DNA from: Aggregatilinea lenta
GTDB taxonomy: Bacteria > Chloroflexota > Anaerolineae > Aggregatilineales > Aggregatilineaceae
Reading direction: 5' to 3'
Length of the DNA: 64,000 bases
Assembly (NCBI RefSeq): GCF_003569045.1
Contig: NZ_BFCB01000003.1
Coordinates: 62,001-126,000, forward strand
Shown: positions 6,837 to 39,994 of the stretch, in pieces
Position numbering within the stretch: position 1 is the stretch's first letter
Layout of the letters: every line of letters begins with the position of its first letter
Notes under the pieces: model-generated
Told to the model about the DNA's origin: nothing
Database searches by the model: none
Seen by the model: the letters and a program-made list of their open reading frames with translations, nothing else
Made by a program: the position numbers and the translations under genes

Positions 6837-7091
6837 GGGCGGCTTAAGTAGCCGTTTGAGAACCCCCCCATCCCCAGCCCTTCCCTCACAAGGAGGGAAG
6901 GGAGAAAAGCAGAGGAGGGGTTTGGGGCGGGGCAAACGCGAATCGACGTCACTTTTCAAATGGTTCTAAGGACTTGGTCCGGCCCTTGCAGAGACCTTAC
7001 TCCCGGCCCCTCGGCAATTAAGTTTGAGGGGGGAGGCAAGCGAAAAATAGGTAGATTGTGTAGGGGCGGGTTTCGAACCTGCCCGTTTTTT
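6837..7091. repeat. Composite short palindromic repeats after the anti-sigma gene
   Basis: No gene is visible between 6837 and 7233. The stretch holds a perfect 10-bp hairpin CCCTTCCCTC (6878-6887) / GAGGGAAGGG (6893-6902), a degenerate copy of the CCCCTC...GAGGGG element around 7005-7030, and a GTAGGGGCGGGTTT...AACCTGCCC element (7060-7084) followed by seven T (7085-7091). The last could act as the terminator of the sigma/anti-sigma unit. Related copies occur at six other intergenic sites in the window. Confidence 0.75.
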
Positions 7092-25281: not shown

Positions 25282-26175
25282 ATGACGCGCTTTGGCTATG
25301 CCTGCATCTCCGACCTGCTCGGCGTGACGACCAGCCGCACCTGCCGCCTGACGTCCGCCACGCCCGACCGCCTGCGCGAGCTGATCGACATCAACCTGAC
25401 GGCGCTAATGACCATCCTGGAACATAACCGCGCACACGGCTGGGGCCTGTTTCGCATTGGGTCGGGCGTGATCCCCTTCGGCTCGCACTCGATCAATATG
25501 TTGGAATGGGACGCCGAATTCGCCCCGCAGTTGGCCGCCATCGGAACGTTCGCGCTGCGCCATGACATGCGCCTGTCGATGCATCCCGGCCAGTACACGA
25601 TCATCAATTCGCCCAACCCGGACGTGCGCCGCGCGGCGGTGGCGGAGCTGGCGTACGCTGCCCGCTTTCTGGACGCGCTCGGCCTGCCCCCCGCGCATAA
25701 GCTGGTGCTGCACGTTGGCGGCGTGTATGGCGACAAGCCCGCCGCGCTGGCACGTTTCGCAGAGGAGGCGAACCGTCTGCCGGATGCGGTTCGGCGGCGG
25801 CTCGTGGTCGAGAACGACGACCGGCACTATACGCTGGCCGACGTGCTGGCGATCTCGGAGCAAACCGGGTTGCCGGTCGTGTTCGACAACCTGCACGACC
25901 GCCTGCATCCCTCGCCGGAGCCGCCGGAAGTGCTGCTGCCGCGTGTCTTCGCAACGTGGGGCGGGCAGCATGGCGCGCCGAAGGTGCACTTTTCGTCCCA
26001 GGCAACCGGCCAGCGGCCCGGCAAGCACGCCGAGTTCGCCGATCCCGACGAGTTTCGAGCCGTGCTCGATTTGTGCGGGCGGCACGGCGCGTTTGACCTG
26101 ATGCTCGAAGCGAAGGCGAAGGACACGGCGCTGCGAGCGGTCCTGGCGGCGATCGAAAGCGCTGCCGCCACTTAG
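25282..26175 (+). CDS. uvsE: UV damage endonuclease
   Basis: A 297-residue TIM-barrel DNA endonuclease of the UvdE/UvsE family, which nicks DNA 5' of UV photoproducts as an alternative to UvrABC. Family motifs are plain: GYACISDLLGV at the start, RIGSGVIPFGSH, MHPGQYTIINSP, LVLHVGGVYGDK, VVENDDRHYTLADVL, VVFDNLHDRLHP and a C-terminal DLMLEAKAKDTALR. His, Glu and Asp metal ligands lie in these segments. It is a lone gene; no LexA-type box was found upstream. Confidence 0.96.
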   Translation: MTRFGYACISDLLGVTTSRTCRLTSATPDRLRELIDINLTALMTILEHNRAHGWGLFRIGSGVIPFGSHSINMLEWDAEFAPQLAAIGTFALRHDMRLSMHPGQYTIINSPNPDVRRAAVAELAYAARFLDALGLPPAHKLVLHVGGVYGDKPAALARFAEEANRLPDAVRRRLVVENDDRHYTLADVLAISEQTGLPVVFDNLHDRLHPSPEPPEVLLPRVFATWGGQHGAPKVHFSSQATGQRPGKHAEFADPDEFRAVLDLCGRHGAFDLMLEAKAKDTALRAVLAAIESAAAT

Positions 26176-29743: not shown

Positions 29744-30802
29744 ATGACCCGCGACGAGATTTTCCGGCTGACGGCCCTGTCATCCTGCGCTGGTTGAGCG
29801 TCGAAGCTGGCCCCTGAGGCCCTGGCGCACGTGCTGCGTCCGATGCAAGACCTGTTCCCTGCCGCAGAGTCACCCGACCTGTTGGTGGGATTAGGCACGC
29901 CTGATGATGCCGCCGTTTATCGCCTGGACGACGCGCGCGCGCTGATCGTCACGACCGACTTTTTCACGCCCATTGTGGACGACGCGCACGCCTACGGCGC
30001 GATTGCGGCGGCCAACGCGCTCAGCGACGTGTACGCGATGGGCGGATCGCCGCTGCTGGCGCTGACCATCGCCGCGCTGCCGCCCGATCTGCCGCTCGAC
30101 GTGACGAGCGGGATTATGCGGGGGTTGGCGGAGACGGTGCGCGACGCGCGCGCGGTGATCGCGGGCGGGCACACGATCCAGGACAAAGAGCCGAAGGTCG
30201 GGCTGGCGGTCGTCGGATTGGGGCATCCCGATCGCCTGCTGACGAAAGGCGGCGCGCGTCCCGGTGATGCGCTGGTACTGACTAAACCGCTCGGCACAGG
30301 CTGTATCACGACCGCCGCCAAGAACGACAAAGCCGATCCCGCCGCGTTGCAAGAGGCGGTCGGCTGGATGACGCGCCTCAACCGCGACGCGGCGGAAGTC
30401 GCGGTGGACCTCGGCTTGCGCGCGGCGACGGATATTACCGGCTTCGGGCTGTTGGGTCACGGCACGGAAGTGGCCGCTGCCAGCGACGTGACGCTGCGCA
30501 TTGCGTTTGGGCAGATCCCGTTTATGGCGGGGGCGTGGGCCTGCGCCGAGCAGTGGACCTTCCCCGGCGGCGCGTCCGCGAATCGCGTGGCGTACGAAGC
30601 GGGTGTGGCCTTCGATCCGGCGCTGGACGAGATGCGCCAGATGATGCTGTTCGATCCGCAGACCAGCGGCGGCCTGCTGATCGGCGTGCCGCAAGATCGG
30701 CTGGACGCGTTCGGCGCGGCAATGGCGGCGCGCGGGGCCGCGTGGTGGCAAATCGGCACAACAGAGCCGCGCGGGGCGGCGGGTATCATCGTGACGGCCT
30801 GA
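29744..30802 (+). CDS. selD: Selenide, water dikinase (selenophosphate synthetase), predicted selenoprotein
   Basis: SelD makes selenophosphate, the selenium donor for selenocysteine, from selenide and ATP. Reading from the ATG at 29744 gives MTRDEIFRLTALSSCAG, then an in-frame TGA (codon 18), then ASKLAPEALAHVLRPM and the rest of a full SelD. The TGA aligns with catalytic Cys17 of the E. coli enzyme and Lys21 with its Lys20, and homology continues across the codon, so TGA is best read as selenocysteine. Later motifs include TPDDAAVY, TTDFFTPIVDD, AANALSDVYAMGG, GGHTIQDKEPKVGL, TDITGFGLLGHG and DPQTSGGLL. A conventional caller would start at the GTG at 29831 and lose the active site. Full length is 352 residues, normal for the family. 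No selA, selB or selC is in the window. Confidence 0.9.
29795..29797 (+). other. In-frame UGA predicted to encode selenocysteine in selD
   Basis: The TGA sits in the sequence Ser-Cys-Ala-Gly-UGA-Ala-Ser-Lys, at the catalytic position of SelD. A possible small stem, GGCC (29809-29812) and GGCC (29818-29821) with a 5-base loop, lies 12-24 bases downstream, roughly where a bacterial SECIS apical loop would be, but I could not build a longer canonical SECIS stem by eye. Confidence 0.8.
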
Positions 30803-30923
30803 TCCGTTTATTGGATCATCGCAAGAGACTTCGCCGTTTGCCCGTGATAAGGCGATAATCCCCTTTCGTTTAGTAGTGTACCAACGATCATCTGACAATT
30901 TGCGCGTAAGGGACAAAAGCACC

Positions 30924-32150
30924 GTGCAGCTTTATAACACACTCTCCGGCCAGCTTGAGCCGGTCACCAGTGACGACAATATTTTCCGCATGTACGTCTG
31001 TGGCGTCACGCCCTACGACACGACGCACCTGGGGCACGCCTTCACCTTCGTGATGTTCGACGTGCTGGAACGCTACCTGGAATATCTGGGCTACGAGACG
31101 CAAACCGTCCAGAACGTAACCGACATCGACGACGACATCCTGCGCCGGGCGCGCGAACTCAGCCTGCCGTGGAATGAGCTGGCCCACCAGGAGACGGAAA
31201 AGTATCTGGCTGATATGCGCGCGCTCAACGTGCGCCCACCCGATCATTTCGTCTACGCGACCAGCGTGATCGAGCAGATCCAGGCGATGGTCGCCGCGCT
31301 GCTGGAAGGCGGTTACGCCTACGCCAGCGGCGGCAGCGTCTACTACGACGTGTGCAGCGATCCTGGCTTCGGCAAGCTGGGCAAAATGAATTACGAGGAT
31401 ATGCTGGCGACCGCCAACGAGCGCGGCAACTTTCCCGACGACCCGAACAAGCGCGATCCGCTGGACTTCGTGCTGTGGCAGGCGGCGAAGCCCGGCGAAC
31501 CGACCTGGGACAGCCCGTGGGGAGAGGGTCGCCCCGGCTGGCACATCGAGTGCTCGACGATGAGCACGCACTACCTCGGCCCCAAGATCGACATTCACAG
31601 CGGCGGCGAGGACCTCGTCTTCCCGCATCACGACTGCGAGATCGTGCAGTCCGAGCACGCGACGGGCGAGCACCCCTTCGTGCGCTACTGGTTCCACGTG
31701 GCGATGGTCCGGCTCGACGGCGAAAAAATGAGCAAGTCGCTGGGCAACATGCTATTCGTCGGCAAACTGATCGAAACCTATTCGCCCGACACGCTGCGCG
31801 TTTATCTGCTGACGCACCACTACCGCGATGCGTGGTCCGCCGACGGCTACGAGGACGATCTGAAGCGCATCGGCGCTCTGTTGAAGCAGTGGTGCGAGGT
31901 GCTGGCCCGGCCCAGCGAGGGCGAGTCGTTCGACGCCTCGGCGTACGAGGCGGACTTCCGCGCGGCGATGGACGACGATCTGCACACGGCGGGCGCGATC
32001 GAAGCGATGGATGCGCTTGCCAACGCGATCAACGCGGCGGCGCTGCAGGGCCAGGACGTGACCGCTGCCCAGAATCTGCTGCGCACGCTGGGCGATACGC
32101 TCGGCCTGCGCCTGGACACGCAGCATCCCGGCTGCGACGAGCTGCAATAA
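30924..32150 (+). CDS. cysS: Cysteinyl-tRNA synthetase-family ligase with MshC-like active-site motif
   Basis: A 408-residue class I ligase that activates cysteine with ATP. The zinc and ATP motifs of CysRS are present: MYVCGVTPYDTTHLGHAF (with the HIGH-equivalent HLGH), PGWHIECS, GGEDLVFPHHDCE and GEKMSKSLGN. The segment CGVTPYD-TTHLGHA is closer to the MshC mycothiol ligase form than to the usual CGPTVYDYxHIGNA of CysRS, and the protein is shorter than most CysRS (about 460 residues). With no mycothiol genes visible, tRNA charging is the default call. The GTG at 30924 (MQLYNTLSGQLEP) is chosen over 30876 because AAGGGA precedes it and the frame start fits the family. Confidence 0.82.
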   Translation: MQLYNTLSGQLEPVTSDDNIFRMYVCGVTPYDTTHLGHAFTFVMFDVLERYLEYLGYETQTVQNVTDIDDDILRRARELSLPWNELAHQETEKYLADMRALNVRPPDHFVYATSVIEQIQAMVAALLEGGYAYASGGSVYYDVCSDPGFGKLGKMNYEDMLATANERGNFPDDPNKRDPLDFVLWQAAKPGEPTWDSPWGEGRPGWHIECSTMSTHYLGPKIDIHSGGEDLVFPHHDCEIVQSEHATGEHPFVRYWFHVAMVRLDGEKMSKSLGNMLFVGKLIETYSPDTLRVYLLTHHYRDAWSADGYEDDLKRIGALLKQWCEVLARPSEGESFDASAYEADFRAAMDDDLHTAGAIEAMDALANAINAAALQGQDVTAAQNLLRTLGDTLGLRLDTQHPGCDELQ

Positions 32151-32183
32151 ACAGTCATCAAGGGCCGCGCTAAACATGGATTC

Positions 32184-32304
32184 GTAGGGTCGGGGCTTGC
32201 GCCGCCCGGCGTTTGGCAAAAAGGCCGGGCAGGTTGCACACCTGCCCCTACAAAACCCGGTCGGGCGCTGCCTGTCTCCCCTCTCCAAGCAAGTTGGAGA
32301 GGGG
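32184..32304. repeat. Cluster of palindromic repeats after the cysS-like gene
   Basis: Between the two genes (32151-32510) lie a CGTAGGGTCGGGGCTTGCGCC fragment (about 32183-32203), GGGCAGGT-tgcac-ACCTGCCC followed by CTAC (32227-32251), and an 11-bp perfect hairpin CCCCTCTCCAA-gcaag-TTGGAGAGGGG (32278-32304). They are the same types as at 18418-18544 and 50926-51000. No gene is visible in this stretch. Confidence 0.85.
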
Positions 32305-32440
32305 CCGGGGGCGAGGTCTCTCCGCCGCCGGATCGCTCCTTTTTCCCGCACCAAACCCACTCGATTTACCTCTTCCCGCCGCCCTAGTTTCTCCCTGGGC
32401 CGAAACAGGCTAAAATCACCACAATCCTCGCCGGGATGCA

Positions 32441-32510: not shown

Positions 32511-33350
32511 ATGGCCTATCAAGCTGAAATTAGCCGCTCGAATCCATCGTGCTTCCTGTTCCTGATCGACCAATCCGCGTCGATGGCCGATCCGTTCGGC
32601 ACGGGGGACGCCAAGAAGAAGAAGGCGGACGGCGTCGCGGACGCGATCAACCGCCTGCTGCAAAACCTCGTGATCAAGTGCGCCAAGGCCGAAGGCGTGC
32701 GCGATTATTACCACGTCGGCGTGATCGGCTACGGCAAGGACGTCGGCCCGGCGTTCAGCGGTCCACTGGCGGGTAAGACGCTGGTGCCGATCAGCGAGGT
32801 GGCCGAGATGCCCGCGCGCATCGAGGAGCGCACTAAGAAGGTCGATGACGGCGCGGGGGGGCTGGTGGACCAGACGGTCAAGTTCCCGGTGTGGTTCGAC
32901 CCGGTGGCGAACGGCGGTACGCCCATGTCGCAGGCGCTGATGCGCGCCACGAGCGTGATCAAGGGCTGGCTGACCGACCATCCCGACTGCTTCCCGCCCA
33001 TCATCATCAACATCAGCGACGGCGAAGCGACCGACGGCAGCCCCAGCGCTCTGACCGATGCCCTCAAGAAGCTCAGCAGCAGTGACGGCGGCGTATTGCT
33101 GTTCAACCTGCACCTGTCGTCTACGGATGCCGCGCCGATCCAGTTCCCCGCGCACGAAGAGGGGCTGGCCGACAAGCACGCCAAGCTGCTCTACGCCATG
33201 TCCAGCCCGCTGCCGGACTACATGCGCACCATCGCGGCGCAAGAAGGTTTCAACGTGGACGAGGACGCCCGCGGCTTCGTCTTCAACGCCGACATCGTTT
33301 CGGTGATCCAGTTCCTGGACATCGGTACGCGGCCCAGCAACTTGCGCTAG
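32511..33350 (+). CDS. vWA-domain protein (TerY-like)
   Basis: A 279-residue cytoplasmic von Willebrand factor A domain protein. The metal-ion-dependent adhesion site is complete: DQSAS (20-24), a Thr in NGGTPMSQAL (about 142) and ISDGEATDG (about 171-179). The fold fills the whole protein, as in TerY-type stand-alone vWA proteins that act as metal-linked adaptors. It is the first gene of a three-gene operon with a PP2C phosphatase 9 bases later and a kinase after that. This order is that of the TerY-P triad known from comparative genomics. AAAGGAG precedes the ATG. Confidence 0.9.
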   Translation: MAYQAEISRSNPSCFLFLIDQSASMADPFGTGDAKKKKADGVADAINRLLQNLVIKCAKAEGVRDYYHVGVIGYGKDVGPAFSGPLAGKTLVPISEVAEMPARIEERTKKVDDGAGGLVDQTVKFPVWFDPVANGGTPMSQALMRATSVIKGWLTDHPDCFPPIIINISDGEATDGSPSALTDALKKLSSSDGGVLLFNLHLSSTDAAPIQFPAHEEGLADKHAKLLYAMSSPLPDYMRTIAAQEGFNVDEDARGFVFNADIVSVIQFLDIGTRPSNLR

Positions 33351-33359
33351 GCGGTGAGC

Positions 33360-34133
33360 ATGCAAGTCCACGCGCGCGTCTTCTGGCTGCCCAAGACCGG
33401 CAACACGGCGGAGGAATACGAAGACGCTTTTTATCCCAGCCGTGACGGCGACTATGGCGGGACGCAGCTGCGCTTCGCGGTGGCCGACGGGGCCAGCGAA
33501 GGCATGCTCAGCGGCCAGTGGGCCAACATCCTCGTGCGCGCCTACTGCCGCGCGGTCAACACGTCGCAGATGCCCGATCTGCTGGCCCGCGCGCTGCCAT
33601 CCTGGCGCGACTGGAAGCAGCATTACCTCGACCTGCGCGCGCGCCAGGATCGCCCGGTGCAGTGGTTCGAGGAGCCGGGGCTGGAAAAGGGCGCGTTTTC
33701 GACGCTGCTGGGCCTGACGCTGCACGACGGCGAGACGCCGGGCTGGGACGCGACCGCGTTGGGCGATAGCTGCCTGTTCCAGGTGCGCGCAGATGAACTG
33801 GTCGCCGCGCTGCCCATCGACGACGCGGAGGCGTTTGGCAGCCGCCCGTTCCTTATCGCCAGCAACCCGGCGCGCAACAATGGCCTGCTGGAGCGCGTGC
33901 ATTACGCGGCGGGTGAGTGGCAGCCGGGCGATCGCTTCTACCTGATGACCGACGCGCTGGCGCACTGGTTCGTGCGCGAGCTTGAAGCGGGTGCGGCCCC
34001 GTGGGAAGCGCTGCACGCGGCGGAGGGGCCGGAGGCTTTCGACGCCTGGACCGCCGCCCTCAAGCGCGACCGCCAGATCCGCAACGACGACATTACACTG
34101 CTGTGCCTGGAGGTCGCTGAGGACGCGCCATGA
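33360..34133 (+). CDS. PP2C-family protein phosphatase (triad member)
   Basis: A 257-residue serine/threonine phosphatase. Metal-binding and fold motifs: YEDAF (20-24), VADGASEG (41-48, Asp43), GDSCLF (135-140), LMTDALAHW (196-204, Asp198) and NDDITLL (242-248). It would remove phosphates placed by the kinase encoded next. The ATG at 33360 is preferred since GGTGA lies 5 bases before it; a GTG at 33354 is possible. The TGA stop overlaps the kinase ATG (ATGA), a sign of translational coupling. Confidence 0.9.
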   Translation: MQVHARVFWLPKTGNTAEEYEDAFYPSRDGDYGGTQLRFAVADGASEGMLSGQWANILVRAYCRAVNTSQMPDLLARALPSWRDWKQHYLDLRARQDRPVQWFEEPGLEKGAFSTLLGLTLHDGETPGWDATALGDSCLFQVRADELVAALPIDDAEAFGSRPFLIASNPARNNGLLERVHYAAGEWQPGDRFYLMTDALAHWFVRELEAGAAPWEALHAAEGPEAFDAWTAALKRDRQIRNDDITLLCLEVAEDAP

Positions 34134-35989
34134 CATCCTGGCCGACGATGACCGACTACCAGGAGGCGATGCAAAACCCGCGCTACAGCTTTAGCGATCC
34201 GGAGTTGCAGCGCGGCACACCTGTGCTCAACATGCTCGGTCTGCCCAAGCCCATCACGGGCGCGTTCGCCAGCGTCTACCAGATCGCCTCCGGCGGACAC
34301 CAGTACGCGGTGCGCTGTTTCCTGCGCTACCACGCCGACCAGGCCCAGCGCTACGCCGCGATCAGCAACTATCTCCAACAAGTCCGCCTGCCCTATACGG
34401 TCGAATTCAACCTTCAGCCCAAAGGCATCCGCATGCGCGGCGAGTGGTTCCCCCTCCTGAAGATGGAGTGGATCAACGGCCAGTCGCTCGACGGCTACAT
34501 CGAGCAGCACCTCGATCACCCCGCCGTGCTGCGCAATCTGGCCGACCGCTTCGCCAAGATGATCGGGGACCTGGGCCGCGCATCCATCGCCCACGGCGAC
34601 CTTCAGCACGGCAACATCCTCATCGTCAACCACCAGTTTTTACTGATCGACTATGACGGCATGTACGTCCCCACGCTGGACGGCATGGCGAGTCACGAGC
34701 TGGGCCACCGCAACTACCAGCACCCCGGTCGCCAGGAAACCGACTTTGGCCCGCACATCGACAACTTCTCCGCGTGGGTGATCTACCTGTCGTTGATGGC
34801 GCTCAGCGTCCAGCCAGCACTGTGGCGCACGCTGCGCGCCGGGGACGAGTGCCTGCTGTTCCGCCAGCACGACTTTCAGAATATCACTTCCTCGCCCGCG
34901 ATGAAGGCCGTCAGCCAGGTGCCCGACCGCAACGTGCATGCCCTGGCCGAACGCTTCCGCACGGCGGTGCTGTCGGACTTCGCGCAGATCCCGTCGATTT
35001 TGCGCAACAGCGCCCTGACCGGCGGCCCGGAACGGCGGTTGGTCAGTGGGCTGAGTTGGCTGGAAGACTACGTGCGCCCGCGCGAACAGCGCGAGCCGCC
35101 CCTGCCCCCGACGCTCCCTGAGCAGCCCCCGGCCCACGCCGCGACACTGACGGGCGGCTCCTCGTGGGTGCTCGACTATCTCGACGAGCCGATCGAGCCG
35201 GAGCCGCCTGCGGCGCAGACGCGCCCCTCCGATCAGACCGATCTGCGTGAGCGCGTCGTGATCGGCACCTACGGGCTGGTGATGCATGCAGGGTTCAGCG
35301 CGGTGGCGCTCGGTGCGCTGCCGTCCAGCCTCGTGGGGATCACCGCCGGGGGCGGCGTGATTCTGATCGCCGTCTATCTCGTGCTGCAATACTCGCTGTT
35401 CCCGGAGGTGCGACACAAGCGCCGCCTGCTTCTTCGCCGCGTGCGCCTGCGGTGGGACCGGGCCATCGCGGGCCAGCAGCTTTATTGGAATGCTATCGCG
35501 CGCAAGCGCGTCGAGGGCGAGGAACAGCAGCAGCTCGCCCGCCTGAACCAGAATCTCAACCACTACATCGAGGTCGAGCTGCGGCGCTACCCGGTGGCCT
35601 ACCACGAAATTCCCGGCATCGATCCGGCACTGGCGCAGCGGCTGCGCGCGGCAGGCGTGATGTCGGCGGCGGATGTGACGTATTGGCGTGTGGAGCAGGT
35701 GCCGGGCGTGGATGACGTGCGCGCCGAGGCGCTGGTGCGCTGGCGGCAGCAGCTCGAAACACGCCTGAAGACGCAAAAGCTCCAGCCGCTGGTGTCGTGG
35801 CAGATGTCGCAGAAGGCCGCGCTGCAAAACGTCTACGGCCACAAGCGCCGTACCTTGACTGCGCGCGAAGTCAGCTTTCAGCAGCGCCGCGCCTATGCCG
35901 TGTCCGACCTGGCGCGCATCCGTGACGAGCTGATCAGCTACCGCGATGTGAACTTCCGCACCTATCTGCGCTGGGTGTTCAGCGGCTGA
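34130..35989 (+). CDS. Protein kinase-like protein with membrane segments and HhH-like tail (triad member)
   Basis: A 619-residue protein. The kinase domain (about 40-290) has the catalytic loop HGDLQHGN (155-162) and a DFG-like IDYDG (173-177); the glycine loop is GAFASVYQ and the usual beta3 lysine position (AVRCF) is occupied by Arg62, so catalytic competence is uncertain. A Pro-rich linker follows, then two hydrophobic segments (about 383-420), then a basic helical region and a helix-hairpin-helix-like module (about 505-550: IPGIDPALAQRLRAAGVMSAADV...VPGVDDVRAEAL). The HhH tail is typical of kinases in TerY-P systems. Overlap with the PP2C gene by 4 bases ties them in one operon. Confidence 0.85.
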   Translation: MTSWPTMTDYQEAMQNPRYSFSDPELQRGTPVLNMLGLPKPITGAFASVYQIASGGHQYAVRCFLRYHADQAQRYAAISNYLQQVRLPYTVEFNLQPKGIRMRGEWFPLLKMEWINGQSLDGYIEQHLDHPAVLRNLADRFAKMIGDLGRASIAHGDLQHGNILIVNHQFLLIDYDGMYVPTLDGMASHELGHRNYQHPGRQETDFGPHIDNFSAWVIYLSLMALSVQPALWRTLRAGDECLLFRQHDFQNITSSPAMKAVSQVPDRNVHALAERFRTAVLSDFAQIPSILRNSALTGGPERRLVSGLSWLEDYVRPREQREPPLPPTLPEQPPAHAATLTGGSSWVLDYLDEPIEPEPPAAQTRPSDQTDLRERVVIGTYGLVMHAGFSAVALGALPSSLVGITAGGGVILIAVYLVLQYSLFPEVRHKRRLLLRRVRLRWDRAIAGQQLYWNAIARKRVEGEEQQQLARLNQNLNHYIEVELRRYPVAYHEIPGIDPALAQRLRAAGVMSAADVTYWRVEQVPGVDDVRAEALVRWRQQLETRLKTQKLQPLVSWQMSQKAALQNVYGHKRRTLTAREVSFQQRRAYAVSDLARIRDELISYRDVNFRTYLRWVFSG

Positions 35990-36303: not shown

Positions 36304-38160
36304 ATGAGTGTTTCCGCCCCCCCCTCTAAGAGCGAGTTCTCGGTCGAGAACGCCTACCGCTACGATCTATCCTCTGCGTCCCATTGGATCTTTTCGCACG
36401 TCTGGCGCTACAAGTGGCTGTTTATCGGGGCCATCTTGTGCAGCGTGATCGACTTCGTGGCCTACTCGCAAGCGCCTATGCTGATCGGCGACGTCGCCGG
36501 TGCGCTGATGGAATCGGACGCGAGCAGCAAGCTGGTGTCGCTCTCGCTGGCGATCCTGGCCGTGCAGATCGTCAGCAGCGTGGCGTTCGGCGTGGGCAGC
36601 CTGCTCACCGAGACGACCGCGCAGCGTATGGAAGCCGACGCGCGCCACGAGCTGTACATCAGTCTGCTCGGCAAAAGCCAGACCTTCCACAACCGCCAGC
36701 GCGTGGGCGACATCATGGCCCGCGCGACGGACGACGTGCGCCAGCTCAACGGCATGGTCAGCCCTGGCTTCCGTTTCATGTACGAGACGGTGATTGGCAT
36801 CGTTGTGCCGCTGATTTACATCGCCGCGCTGCGGCTGGAACTGCTGGTTGTCCCGGCACTGTTCATTCTGAGCTACATCGTCTTGGTGCGGCGCTACATG
36901 CACCGGCTTAATCCCGTCATGCACGCGCAGCGCGAGTCGTATGGCGCGCTCAACGCGGGCGCGGAAGAGACGATCTCGGGCATCGAGATCGTCAAGGCCA
37001 GCGTGCAGGAAGCCTTCGAGCGCCTGCGCTTCCGCCGCAACTCGACGGCCTACCGCGACTATTTCGTGGAGCAGGGCAAGATCGAAGCGGGCTACCTGCC
37101 GCTGCTGGTCTTCGGCATCGCGCTGGGCGGGGTCTTCCTGCACAGCATGCTGATGTACCGCCGGGGCGACCTGGACATCGCGGGCATCATCGCCGTGATG
37201 GGCCTGATGAACGTGCTGCGCTTCCCCACGATGATGTCGTTATGGTCGTTTTCGCTGGTGCAGCTGGGGTTAACCAGCGCCAAGCGTATCATGAACATCA
37301 TTAAGGCCGAAACGGAGCTGGATGAGAACGCGGGTGGCTTCAGCAAGCCGCTCGAAGGTGACATCGTGTTCGAGAACGTCTCGTTCACCTACCAGTCCAG
37401 CAGCGACGACTGCGACGAGTGCGAGGCCGCCGTGATCGAGGACATCTCGTTCCACATCGCGCCCGGCCAGACGGTCGCCATCGTCGGGCAGACCGGGTCC
37501 GGCAAGAGCACGCTGGCACAGCTCATCAACCGCACCTACGACGTGACCGAGGGCCGCGTGCTGATCGACGGCGTGGACGTGCGCGAGTGGGACCTGGACG
37601 GGCTGCGCTCGCAGATCTCGAAGATCGAGCAGGACGTGTTCCTGTTCTCGCGCTCCGTCGCGGAGAACGTCGCGTTCGGCGCGCCGGGCACGCCCATTGA
37701 GCAGATCCAGCAGGCCGCGCGCGAAGCCCAGGCGCACGACTTCATCATGTCTTTCGCGGACGGCTACGACACGAAGATCGGCGAGCGCGGCACGATGCTG
37801 TCCGGCGGGCAGCGCCAGCGTATCGCCCTGGCGCGCGCCTTCCTGAGCAACCCGCGCATCCTGATCCTGGACGACAGCACGAGCGCCATCGACAGCGCGA
37901 CCGAGGACGAGATCCAGAAGGCTATCCGCCGCGCGCAGCAGGGCCGGACGACGCTGCTGATCACCCATCGTCTGGCTCAGATTCGCTGGGCCGACCTGAT
38001 CTTGGTGCTCGACCACGGGCGTCTGGTGGCGGCTGGCTCGCACGAGAAGCTGCTGCGCAGCTCGCCCGACTACCGGCGCATCTTTGTCCGTTACGATGTC
38101 GAATTGCCGCCGCTCGAAATGACTGAGTCTCAGATCGCCTATTCATCCCAAGATGCCTAG
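36304..38160 (+). CDS. ABC exporter subunit, degenerate-site half (heterodimer)
   Basis: A 618-residue half-transporter: six transmembrane helices (about 35-320) fused to an ATPase domain (about 350-590). Walker A is GQTGSGKST and the signature is LSGGQRQ, but Walker B reads LILDDSTSAID, with Asp where the catalytic Glu should be. This is how the non-catalytic subunit of heterodimeric exporters such as TmrAB or BmrCD looks. A CDECE insert lies before Walker A. GGAG precedes the ATG. The next gene, 13 bases on, encodes the partner. Multidrug or lipid/peptide export is likely; the substrate is unknown. Confidence 0.92.
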   Translation: MSVSAPPSKSEFSVENAYRYDLSSASHWIFSHVWRYKWLFIGAILCSVIDFVAYSQAPMLIGDVAGALMESDASSKLVSLSLAILAVQIVSSVAFGVGSLLTETTAQRMEADARHELYISLLGKSQTFHNRQRVGDIMARATDDVRQLNGMVSPGFRFMYETVIGIVVPLIYIAALRLELLVVPALFILSYIVLVRRYMHRLNPVMHAQRESYGALNAGAEETISGIEIVKASVQEAFERLRFRRNSTAYRDYFVEQGKIEAGYLPLLVFGIALGGVFLHSMLMYRRGDLDIAGIIAVMGLMNVLRFPTMMSLWSFSLVQLGLTSAKRIMNIIKAETELDENAGGFSKPLEGDIVFENVSFTYQSSSDDCDECEAAVIEDISFHIAPGQTVAIVGQTGSGKSTLAQLINRTYDVTEGRVLIDGVDVREWDLDGLRSQISKIEQDVFLFSRSVAENVAFGAPGTPIEQIQQAAREAQAHDFIMSFADGYDTKIGERGTMLSGGQRQRIALARAFLSNPRILILDDSTSAIDSATEDEIQKAIRRAQQGRTTLLITHRLAQIRWADLILVLDHGRLVAAGSHEKLLRSSPDYRRIFVRYDVELPPLEMTESQIAYSSQDA

Positions 38161-38173
38161 GAGATAACCGCCG

Positions 38174-39994
38174 ATGGGCTTCATTATGGATGGCCTCGAC
38201 GCCGAGGCCTACGACCGGACTTACAGTGACAGTGTGCTGGTCAAGCGCATCGTCAGCTACTTCCGTCCCGAAACCTTCCGTATGTCGGTCTCAGCCGTGA
38301 TGATCGTGCTGACGTCGCTGTTCAACACGCTGCTGCCGATCTACATTTCGAAAGCCATTGACGAGATCCAGACCGATTCGTCGACGGGAACGCTGCTGCG
38401 CATCACGGCGGTGATCACCGTGCTGGGGGTGCTGGGCTGGCTGTTCAACGCCGCGCGCCGCTGGTATTCCGCGATCGCGGTCGGTAACGTGGTGCTCAAC
38501 ATGCGCGAGGACGCGTTCAACGCCGTGCTCAAGCGCGACCTGTCGTTCTACGACAGCTACCCGTCGGGTAAGATCGTCAGTCGCGTCACGTCCGACACGC
38601 AGGCGTTTACCCAGGTCGTCACGCTGACGATGGAGCTGCTCAGCCAACTGCTGCTGATCGTGCTGCTACTCGGCTACCTGTTCACGGTGGACGTGCCGCT
38701 GACGCTGATCACCATGCTGCTTGCGCCGCCCATCATCCTCGTCGCGCTGGCCTTCCGTACGCTGGCGCGCGTGACCGTAACCCAGTCACGGCGTATCATG
38801 GCGGAAGTCAGCTCGCACATTCAGGAGTCGGTGAGCGGGATCGGCGTGGCGAAATCGTTCCGCCAGGAGCACGCGATCTACGATGAGTTCCTGGACGTCA
38901 ACCAGCAGTCGTACCGCATCAACCTGCGTACTGGCTACGTGTTCAGCGGCATCTTCCCGATCCTCAACTTGCTGGCCGCGTTCGGGACCACGGCGCTGGT
39001 GTACTTCGGTGGGCGGCAGGTGCTGGACAGCGGCCTGTCGGCGGGCGACTGGTTCTTGTTCATCCAGGGCGTCGGCATGTTCTGGTTCCCGCTGACCAGC
39101 ATCGCGTCGTTCTGGAGCCAGTTCCAGCTTGGGCTGGCGGCAGGAGAGCGCGTCTTCGCGCTGATCGACGCCGATCCGAAGGTCGTGCAGACTGGTGACG
39201 ACCGGCTGGGCACGGACAAGCTGAGCGGGGAGATCCGCTTCGAGCACGTGGCCTTCAGCTACAACGACAAGGAGCAGGTGCTCAAGGACTTCTCGATGAC
39301 GATCAAGGCGGGCGAGACGCTGGCACTGGTTGGCCACACGGGGTCCGGCAAGTCGAGCATCGCACGCCTGATCACGCGCTTCTACGAGTTCCAGGGCGGG
39401 CACATCCTGGTGGACGGTCACGACGTGCGCAGCCTGAACCTGGAAGCGTTCCGCCAGCATCTGGGCATCGTGACGCAGGTTCCGTTCCTGTTCGACGGCA
39501 CGGTGATGGACAACATCCGGTACGGCAACCAGGACGCGACCGAAGCGGAAGTGCTTGCGGCAGCGGAGCGTGTGGGTGGCGGCGACTGGCTCGACAGCCT
39601 GCCCGACGGCCTGAACACCGAGGTCGGCGAGCGCGGCAGCAGCCTGTCGATGGGCCAGCGGCAGCTTGTCGCGCTGGCGCGTGTGCTGCTGCAAAACCCG
39701 TCGATCTTCATTCTCGACGAAGCGACGGCCAGCATCGATCCGCTGACCGAGACGCTGATTCAAGAAGGGCTGGACGAGATCCTGGAGCAACGCACGTCCA
39801 TCGTGATCGCGCACCGCTTGAGCACCGTGCGCAACGCCGACCGCATCATCGTGCTGCGCGACGGCGAGATCATCGAGGAGGGCAGCCACGACGGGCTGCT
39901 GGCGAGCGGCGGCTACTACGCGGAACTGTACAACATGTATTTCCGCCACCAGAGCCTGGAGTACATCGAGAACGCAGCCTTCGCCGCGCGGTAG
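38174..39994 (+). CDS. ABC exporter subunit, catalytic half (heterodimer)
   Basis: A 606-residue half-transporter with six transmembrane helices (about 40-330) and an ATPase domain (about 355-595). Walker A is GHTGSGKSS, Walker B FILDEATASID with the catalytic Glu, the H-loop is IVIAHRLSTVR, and the signature is LSMGQRQ rather than LSGGQ. Together with the upstream gene it makes one full exporter with one consensus and one degenerate ATP site. Its ribosome site AGGAG lies across the preceding stop codon, so translation is coupled. A terminator follows. Confidence 0.93.
   Translation: MGFIMDGLDAEAYDRTYSDSVLVKRIVSYFRPETFRMSVSAVMIVLTSLFNTLLPIYISKAIDEIQTDSSTGTLLRITAVITVLGVLGWLFNAARRWYSAIAVGNVVLNMREDAFNAVLKRDLSFYDSYPSGKIVSRVTSDTQAFTQVVTLTMELLSQLLLIVLLLGYLFTVDVPLTLITMLLAPPIILVALAFRTLARVTVTQSRRIMAEVSSHIQESVSGIGVAKSFRQEHAIYDEFLDVNQQSYRINLRTGYVFSGIFPILNLLAAFGTTALVYFGGRQVLDSGLSAGDWFLFIQGVGMFWFPLTSIASFWSQFQLGLAAGERVFALIDADPKVVQTGDDRLGTDKLSGEIRFEHVAFSYNDKEQVLKDFSMTIKAGETLALVGHTGSGKSSIARLITRFYEFQGGHILVDGHDVRSLNLEAFRQHLGIVTQVPFLFDGTVMDNIRYGNQDATEAEVLAAAERVGGGDWLDSLPDGLNTEVGERGSSLSMGQRQLVALARVLLQNPSIFILDEATASIDPLTETLIQEGLDEILEQRTSIVIAHRLSTVRNADRIIVLRDGEIIEEGSHDGLLASGGYYAELYNMYFRHQSLEYIENAAFAAR

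Follow-up and report, generated by a model that had tools for sequence, protein, structure and literature searches.

Among the known systems closest to the locus studied here are the TerY-P systems, which protect bacteria against T7-like phages (PMC7699616). In P. aeruginosa, TerY-P protected the population at both low and high phage load, most cells survived, and the effect was specific for Autographiviridae (PMC10889362). Kinases fused to an OB fold define the stand-alone antiphage TerY-P and those with a zinc ribbon the CoCoNuT form, and TerY-P has been proposed to be a metal-sensing phosphorylation switch (PMC11090510). Two further Ser/Thr kinases are relevant. E. coli YegI is an autophosphorylating membrane kinase from which the product of the neighbouring gene, PphC, removes the phosphate (summarized in PMC13232886), and B. 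subtilis YabT is activated by DNA binding (PMC12189002).

We analyzed a window of 64,000 nucleotides from Aggregatilinea lenta (contig NZ_BFCB01000003.1, 62,001 to 126,000); all positions below refer to this whole stretch, and every feature of the three genes lies on its + strand. Three co-directional genes, at 32511–35989, encode a vWA protein, a PP2C-type protein phosphatase and a protein kinase. The terY-like vWA gene (32511–33350, 279 aa) was supported by its ORF, the PADLOC TerY profile and the vWA fold of its AlphaFold model. The phosphatase gene occupies 33360–34133 (257 aa from the ATG at 33360, or 259 aa from an alternative GTG at 33354), and the kinase gene 34130–35989 (619 aa, with a membrane hairpin and a helix-hairpin-helix, HhH, tail). 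An earlier note on this DNA had described three genes in this order, with a 9-base gap and a 4-base overlap, and had called them a TerY-P-type triad. The ORF coordinates agreed with the overlap (ATGA at 34130) and, given the ATG start at 33360, with the gap; the TerY-P assignment was upheld by the profiles, the gene order and family-wide co-occurrence. The PADLOC TerY-P profiles matched all three proteins (373 bits for TerY, 105 for PP2C and 279 for the kinase), and the triad cannot be attributed to chance, since the profile E-values go down to 2e-112 and the three genes occur together in 65 of 80 loci elsewhere. The long ORFs on the opposite strand were dismissed as the usual shadow of a high third-position GC, without support of their own.

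The TerY protein matched its profile over the full length (373 bits, E 1.8e-112), while the generic Pfam model was weak for it. Its MIDAS is complete, with the DxSxS residues D20, S22 and S24 plus T137 and D170, all of them invariant in an 11-member alignment. The AlphaFold model (pLDDT 88.7, pTM 0.87) resembles the vWA domains of Ku80 and the integrins, and the structure that it matched best was a vWA domain of Ku80 in complex with a peptide motif. The adjoining phosphatase was recognized by Pfam PP2C_2 (31.9 bits, cut-off 24) as well as by the PADLOC profile, and its metal residues D22, D43-G44, D136, D198 and D243/D244 are kept in 75-78 of 78 relatives.

The third protein begins with a kinase domain (34130–34999, aa 1-290), supported by an alignment of 62 family members. 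The AlphaFold prediction, built on 17 sequences, was confident in this part (pLDDT mostly >90), Foldseek placed it among protein kinases, and a profile of the kinase family matched kinase chains, so that the fold is that of a kinase. The PADLOC STK_OB match (278.7 bits) identifies it as a Ser/Thr kinase of the TerY-P family whose catalysis is predicted; it was confined to aa 3-290 and ended at position 290 of the 562-position model. The generic Pfam score was weak, which is normal for this family, because Pkinase was matched in 46 of 60 relatives at E <=0.01 and the best value was only 2.9e-12. The catalytic loop, HGDLQHGN (aa 155-162), is near-invariant among 62 relatives. The earlier note had regarded the DYD, the Arg at the beta3 position and the membrane helices as variant traits. 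All of them are present, but the label of variant did not hold, because such traits are widespread among the family members, some of them almost universal: the DYD at aa 174-176 is near-invariant among 62 kinases (D 61, Y 56, D 61), and at beta3, where this protein has Arg62, 41 of the 62 have Arg and 19 have Lys.

Beyond the kinase domain, the AlphaFold model showed a disordered linker (aa 294-367), a hairpin, a long helix, an HhH head and a returning helix. The transmembrane hairpin (35234–35398) consists of two membrane-length helices, aa 369-393 and 399-423, found by hydropathy and by AlphaFold; the long helix (35402–35581, aa 425-484) and the return helix (35783–35935, aa 552-602) are modelled by AlphaFold and are likely coiled coils. 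Between them lies the HhH domain (35594–35779, aa 489-550). Pfam HHH_5 recognized it weakly (E 0.003); the region was similar to E. coli YegI (33% over 84 aa, E 2e-9 in a single comparison), and the kinase-family profile matched DNA polymerase IV in the tail (E 0.0035), a match that we read as the HhH of that polymerase. Our own tail HMM, which was seeded with the triad kinase, G049 and YegI, scored the domain at E 6e-26. Thus, the earlier claims of a complete MIDAS, complete PP2C metal motifs, an HGDLxxxN loop, membrane segments and an HhH-like tail were all confirmed, the last by AlphaFold, the YegI similarity and the polymerase IV match, with Pfam weak. The HhH hairpins of this kinase read PGID and PGVD, so that Asp stands where the GIG of most relatives has Gly, and the net charge of the domain is zero. 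Because of these hairpins and the missing net positive charge, DNA binding by this HhH is doubtful; judged from its residues, DNA sensing is uncertain and protein contact seems as likely.

The same HMM found the HhH in 33 of 77 sequences, E. coli YegI included. When kinases were classified by tail type, using a simple hydropathy scan and this one home-made HMM, 31 of 72, from many phyla, carried the HhH tail, most of them with one or two membrane helices; the survey had selected its loci for the resemblance of their TerY to the A. lenta copy, and these proportions are therefore not population frequencies. Ten other kinase tails were inspected, and WD40 propellers, TPR and an Ada-like metal-binding domain were among them. 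On the kinase-domain tree, the distribution of the HhH tail needed 10 changes versus 23.6 when shuffled, which indicates that tails are inherited in clades, yet have been gained or lost repeatedly.

Compared with the antiphage TerY-P system (Gao et al. 2020; PADLOC TerY/PP2C/STK_OB), the A. lenta triad has the same three genes and the same kinase domain family, but the antiphage kinase ends in an OB fold, whereas the A. lenta kinase ends in the membrane hairpin, long helices and HhH. No OB fold was seen in this tail: the AlphaFold model contains only helices past the linker, and the STK_OB match stops with the kinase domain. The CoCoNuT-associated TerY-P (PMC11090510) likewise consists of vWA, PP2C and kinase; however, its kinase has a zinc ribbon and the triad accompanies CnuH/CnuE, whereas the A. 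lenta triad stands alone, with neither of these recognized among its neighbours, and neither Pfam nor the AlphaFold model revealed a zinc ribbon at the end of its kinase. The departure from the experimentally supported OB form and from the CoCoNuT form is the kinase tail itself.

In E. coli K-12, yegL, pphC and yegI form a neighbouring set (L006:2040-6129) that has in common with the A. lenta triad the three-part logic and the HhH tail with membrane helices. The A. lenta kinase domain, however, is not YegI-like: BLAST gave only a 76-residue, 20-bit match between the two. PphC had no useful BLAST similarity to the A. lenta phosphatase, YegL had only a short weak one to TerY, and the PADLOC TerY-P profiles missed YegI and PphC and barely recognized YegL. 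No paper linking YegI/PphC with the TerY-P kinases was found in the literature searched. YabT serves only as a mechanistic precedent for a DNA-activated Ser/Thr kinase; we know of no triad and no HhH tail in its case.

The proline-rich linker that leads from the kinase domain to the membrane diverges fast, but a short motif, W[LVI]x[DE][HYF], is retained in it. The A. lenta kinase has two copies of this enriched motif, WLEDY (35057–35071, aa 310-314) and WVLDY (35165–35179, aa 346-350), and AlphaFold placed a small helix at each within the disordered linker (311-314 and 347-350). The motif was noticed and counted on one set, so its enrichment is descriptive: the strict form occurred 41 times per 10,000 residues in linkers, about 30-fold above the background of 1.35 given by 1312 ORFs from the surveyed loci. 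A looser form, W[LVIAT]x[DE], occurred 35 times, versus a mean of 4.5 and a maximum of 12 in shuffled linkers, and it reached 5.0 per 1000 residues in linkers, compared with 0.32 for kinase domains and 0.17 for tails. It was present as a pair 25-38 residues apart in 10 kinases, and in 21 of 31 HhH-tailed versus 8 of 41 other kinases (Fisher P 7e-5, not corrected for relatedness); it is absent from E. coli YegI. We consider the repeated motif a candidate docking motif, docking being the natural reading of its pattern. Metal sites of vWA domains often take an acidic residue from their ligand; for this reason, and because of the match to peptide-bound Ku80, the TerY vWA is the obvious partner, and we hypothesize that it docks on the linker.

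Full-length matches to the kinase were rare: they were found in one of 60 relatives, from another family of the same order, and in none of 17 other genomes of the same family. TerY was present in 31 of 400 genomes of the phylum, and relatives of the triad occurred in about 20 phyla. Among the 80 good loci of a public genome scan, the PP2C gene was present in 76 and all three genes in 65, some of the remainder being cut by contig ends; the PADLOC TerY-P kinase profile matched 60 of 60 family kinases. The TerY tree interleaves phyla (20 groups, 36 changes versus a minimum of 19), a mixing that may be inflated by binning errors and paralogy, and the A. lenta protein grouped, with support, with proteins from Bacillota, Acidobacteriota and one archaeon. 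Matches to TerY and to the kinase lie near each other on two cyanobacterial plasmids, of which one is typed as mobilizable and the other as conjugative. Copies carried by phages were also considered and rejected, as the phage collection contained none. Foreign base composition was discarded as a sign of acquisition, since the GC and GC3 of the triad resemble those of its neighbours. Because occurrence is patchy and no other gene recurs beside the triad, the pattern fits a stand-alone accessory module that would have spread horizontally.

In the window, the triad sits between a cysS paralogue upstream and an ABC exporter pair downstream. The paralogue (30876-32150) is a second cysteinyl-tRNA synthetase-like gene, about 42% similar in sequence to the copy at G000:C3:2569592; it is directly preceded by an AIR-synthase-family gene that looks like selD (29831-30802), and its one close homologue in the same family (G003, L183) lies in a different setting and was scored with one in-frame TGA. 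The exporter pair (36304-39994) was kept in 10 of 10 same-family loci examined, with the triad not beside it; its first gene was scored with one in-frame TGA in G005 and G013. Housekeeping synteny was thus rejected for the triad, and no conserved housekeeping neighbourhood was found. Flanks differ between genomes, and a clean empty site was not demonstrable. The intergenic region just before the triad (32151-32400) contains short repeats, which also occur near 6990, 18405, 25035, 50921 and 53562, and a UV damage endonuclease (UvdE) gene lies at 25282-26175. The nearest relative of the triad (L073:1104-5391) has three tandem paralogues between TerY and PP2C, 32-35% alike, with signal-peptide-like starts and a propeller-like appearance by eye; Pfam named neither of the two scanned. 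They were dropped as a fourth component because they are absent between the A. lenta genes and had no BLAST match among the window ORFs.

Residence in a defence island was rejected as well. No defence gene was recognized among the 32 window genes scanned; the PADLOC matches were limited to generic ABC ATPases, one desaturase and one repeat protein. No non-triad gene family was present in more than 6 of about 95 triad loci, except for a single cluster from 20 loci, in which the triad genes were probably read on the antisense strand as a shadow.

We consider that the triad is a stand-alone, membrane-anchored phospho-switch of the TerY-P class and most likely an antiphage module (probability about 0.55). 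According to the predictions from sequence and structure, the metal sites of the vWA and PP2C proteins are intact, the catalytic loop of the kinase is complete, and the catalytic domain is joined through a flexible linker to the membrane hairpin and the HhH-tipped long helices. The defence or stress role that the earlier note had suggested is plausible, because relatives protect against T7-like phages and the triad is accessory and patchy, although no defence genes lie nearby; by analogy with these relatives, phage defence would be the likeliest role. An appreciably weaker case can be made for a general envelope or DNA-damage stress switch of the YegI/PphC/YegL kind, in which a membrane kinase and its phosphatase would regulate proteins of the host, with phage resistance incidental or absent. 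Such a switch would be in line with the HhH tail found also in YegI, with the neighbouring set in E. coli K-12 and with the lack of defence genes in the window and of a recurrent defence partner in about 95 loci, but so patchy a distribution and such mixing of phyla would be unusual for housekeeping stress control, and the triad matches strongly the TerY-P profiles to which YegI and PphC do not respond and YegL barely does. Improbable, in our opinion, is a metal or tellurite response module, the first proposal for TerY-P triads, in which the vWA protein would sense a divalent metal and switch kinase signalling; the complete MIDAS and the metal-sensing switch already proposed (PMC11090510) speak for it. 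Against it, no ter genes or metal transporters were recognized beside the triad, and no such family recurs in the relatives. In addition, the usual function of a MIDAS is to dock proteins, not to sense. The Arg in place of Lys at beta3 and the degenerate HhH hairpins could even suggest a decayed or inactive triad, kept by chance; however, the three frames are intact, the catalytic and metal residues are conserved, and Arg is the family majority at beta3 (41/62), which makes decay very improbable.

If the triad is indeed an antiphage phospho-switch, PP2C would hold the kinase dephosphorylated at rest, and the helical/HhH head, on the cytoplasmic side of the inner membrane, would sense a cue of infection, which may be the entry of phage DNA or a protein of the phage. 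In response, the kinase would autophosphorylate and phosphorylate a host or phage target. TerY would be an adaptor that depends on metal; it may dock on the W[LVI]x[DE][HYF] motifs in the linker and thereby bring the phosphatase or the substrate to the kinase. In this scheme, the sensor, the target and the vWA coupling are inferred. The outcome would be that phage growth is blocked and cells survive, as reported for the P. aeruginosa TerY-P.

The membrane-anchored HhH form of TerY-P is widespread but little-described, although the 2012 Ter comparative-genomics study that named TerY-P may already have noted this class. A broader and rather speculative reading is that TerY-P is a plug-in core with exchangeable sensor tails (membrane-HhH, WD40, TPR, OB, zinc-binding and others), in which the vWA metal site would grip the tryptophan-acidic linker motif and the membrane-HhH class would be a broadly distributed antiphage or genome-entry sensor. 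The membrane-anchored HhH arm is the commonest identified tail in our survey, and its presence also in YegI joins the literature on antiphage TerY-P with that on E. coli YegI/PphC. The family thereby offers two candidate handles, the tail as a putative sensor and the tryptophan linker motif as a putative docking site for the vWA protein.
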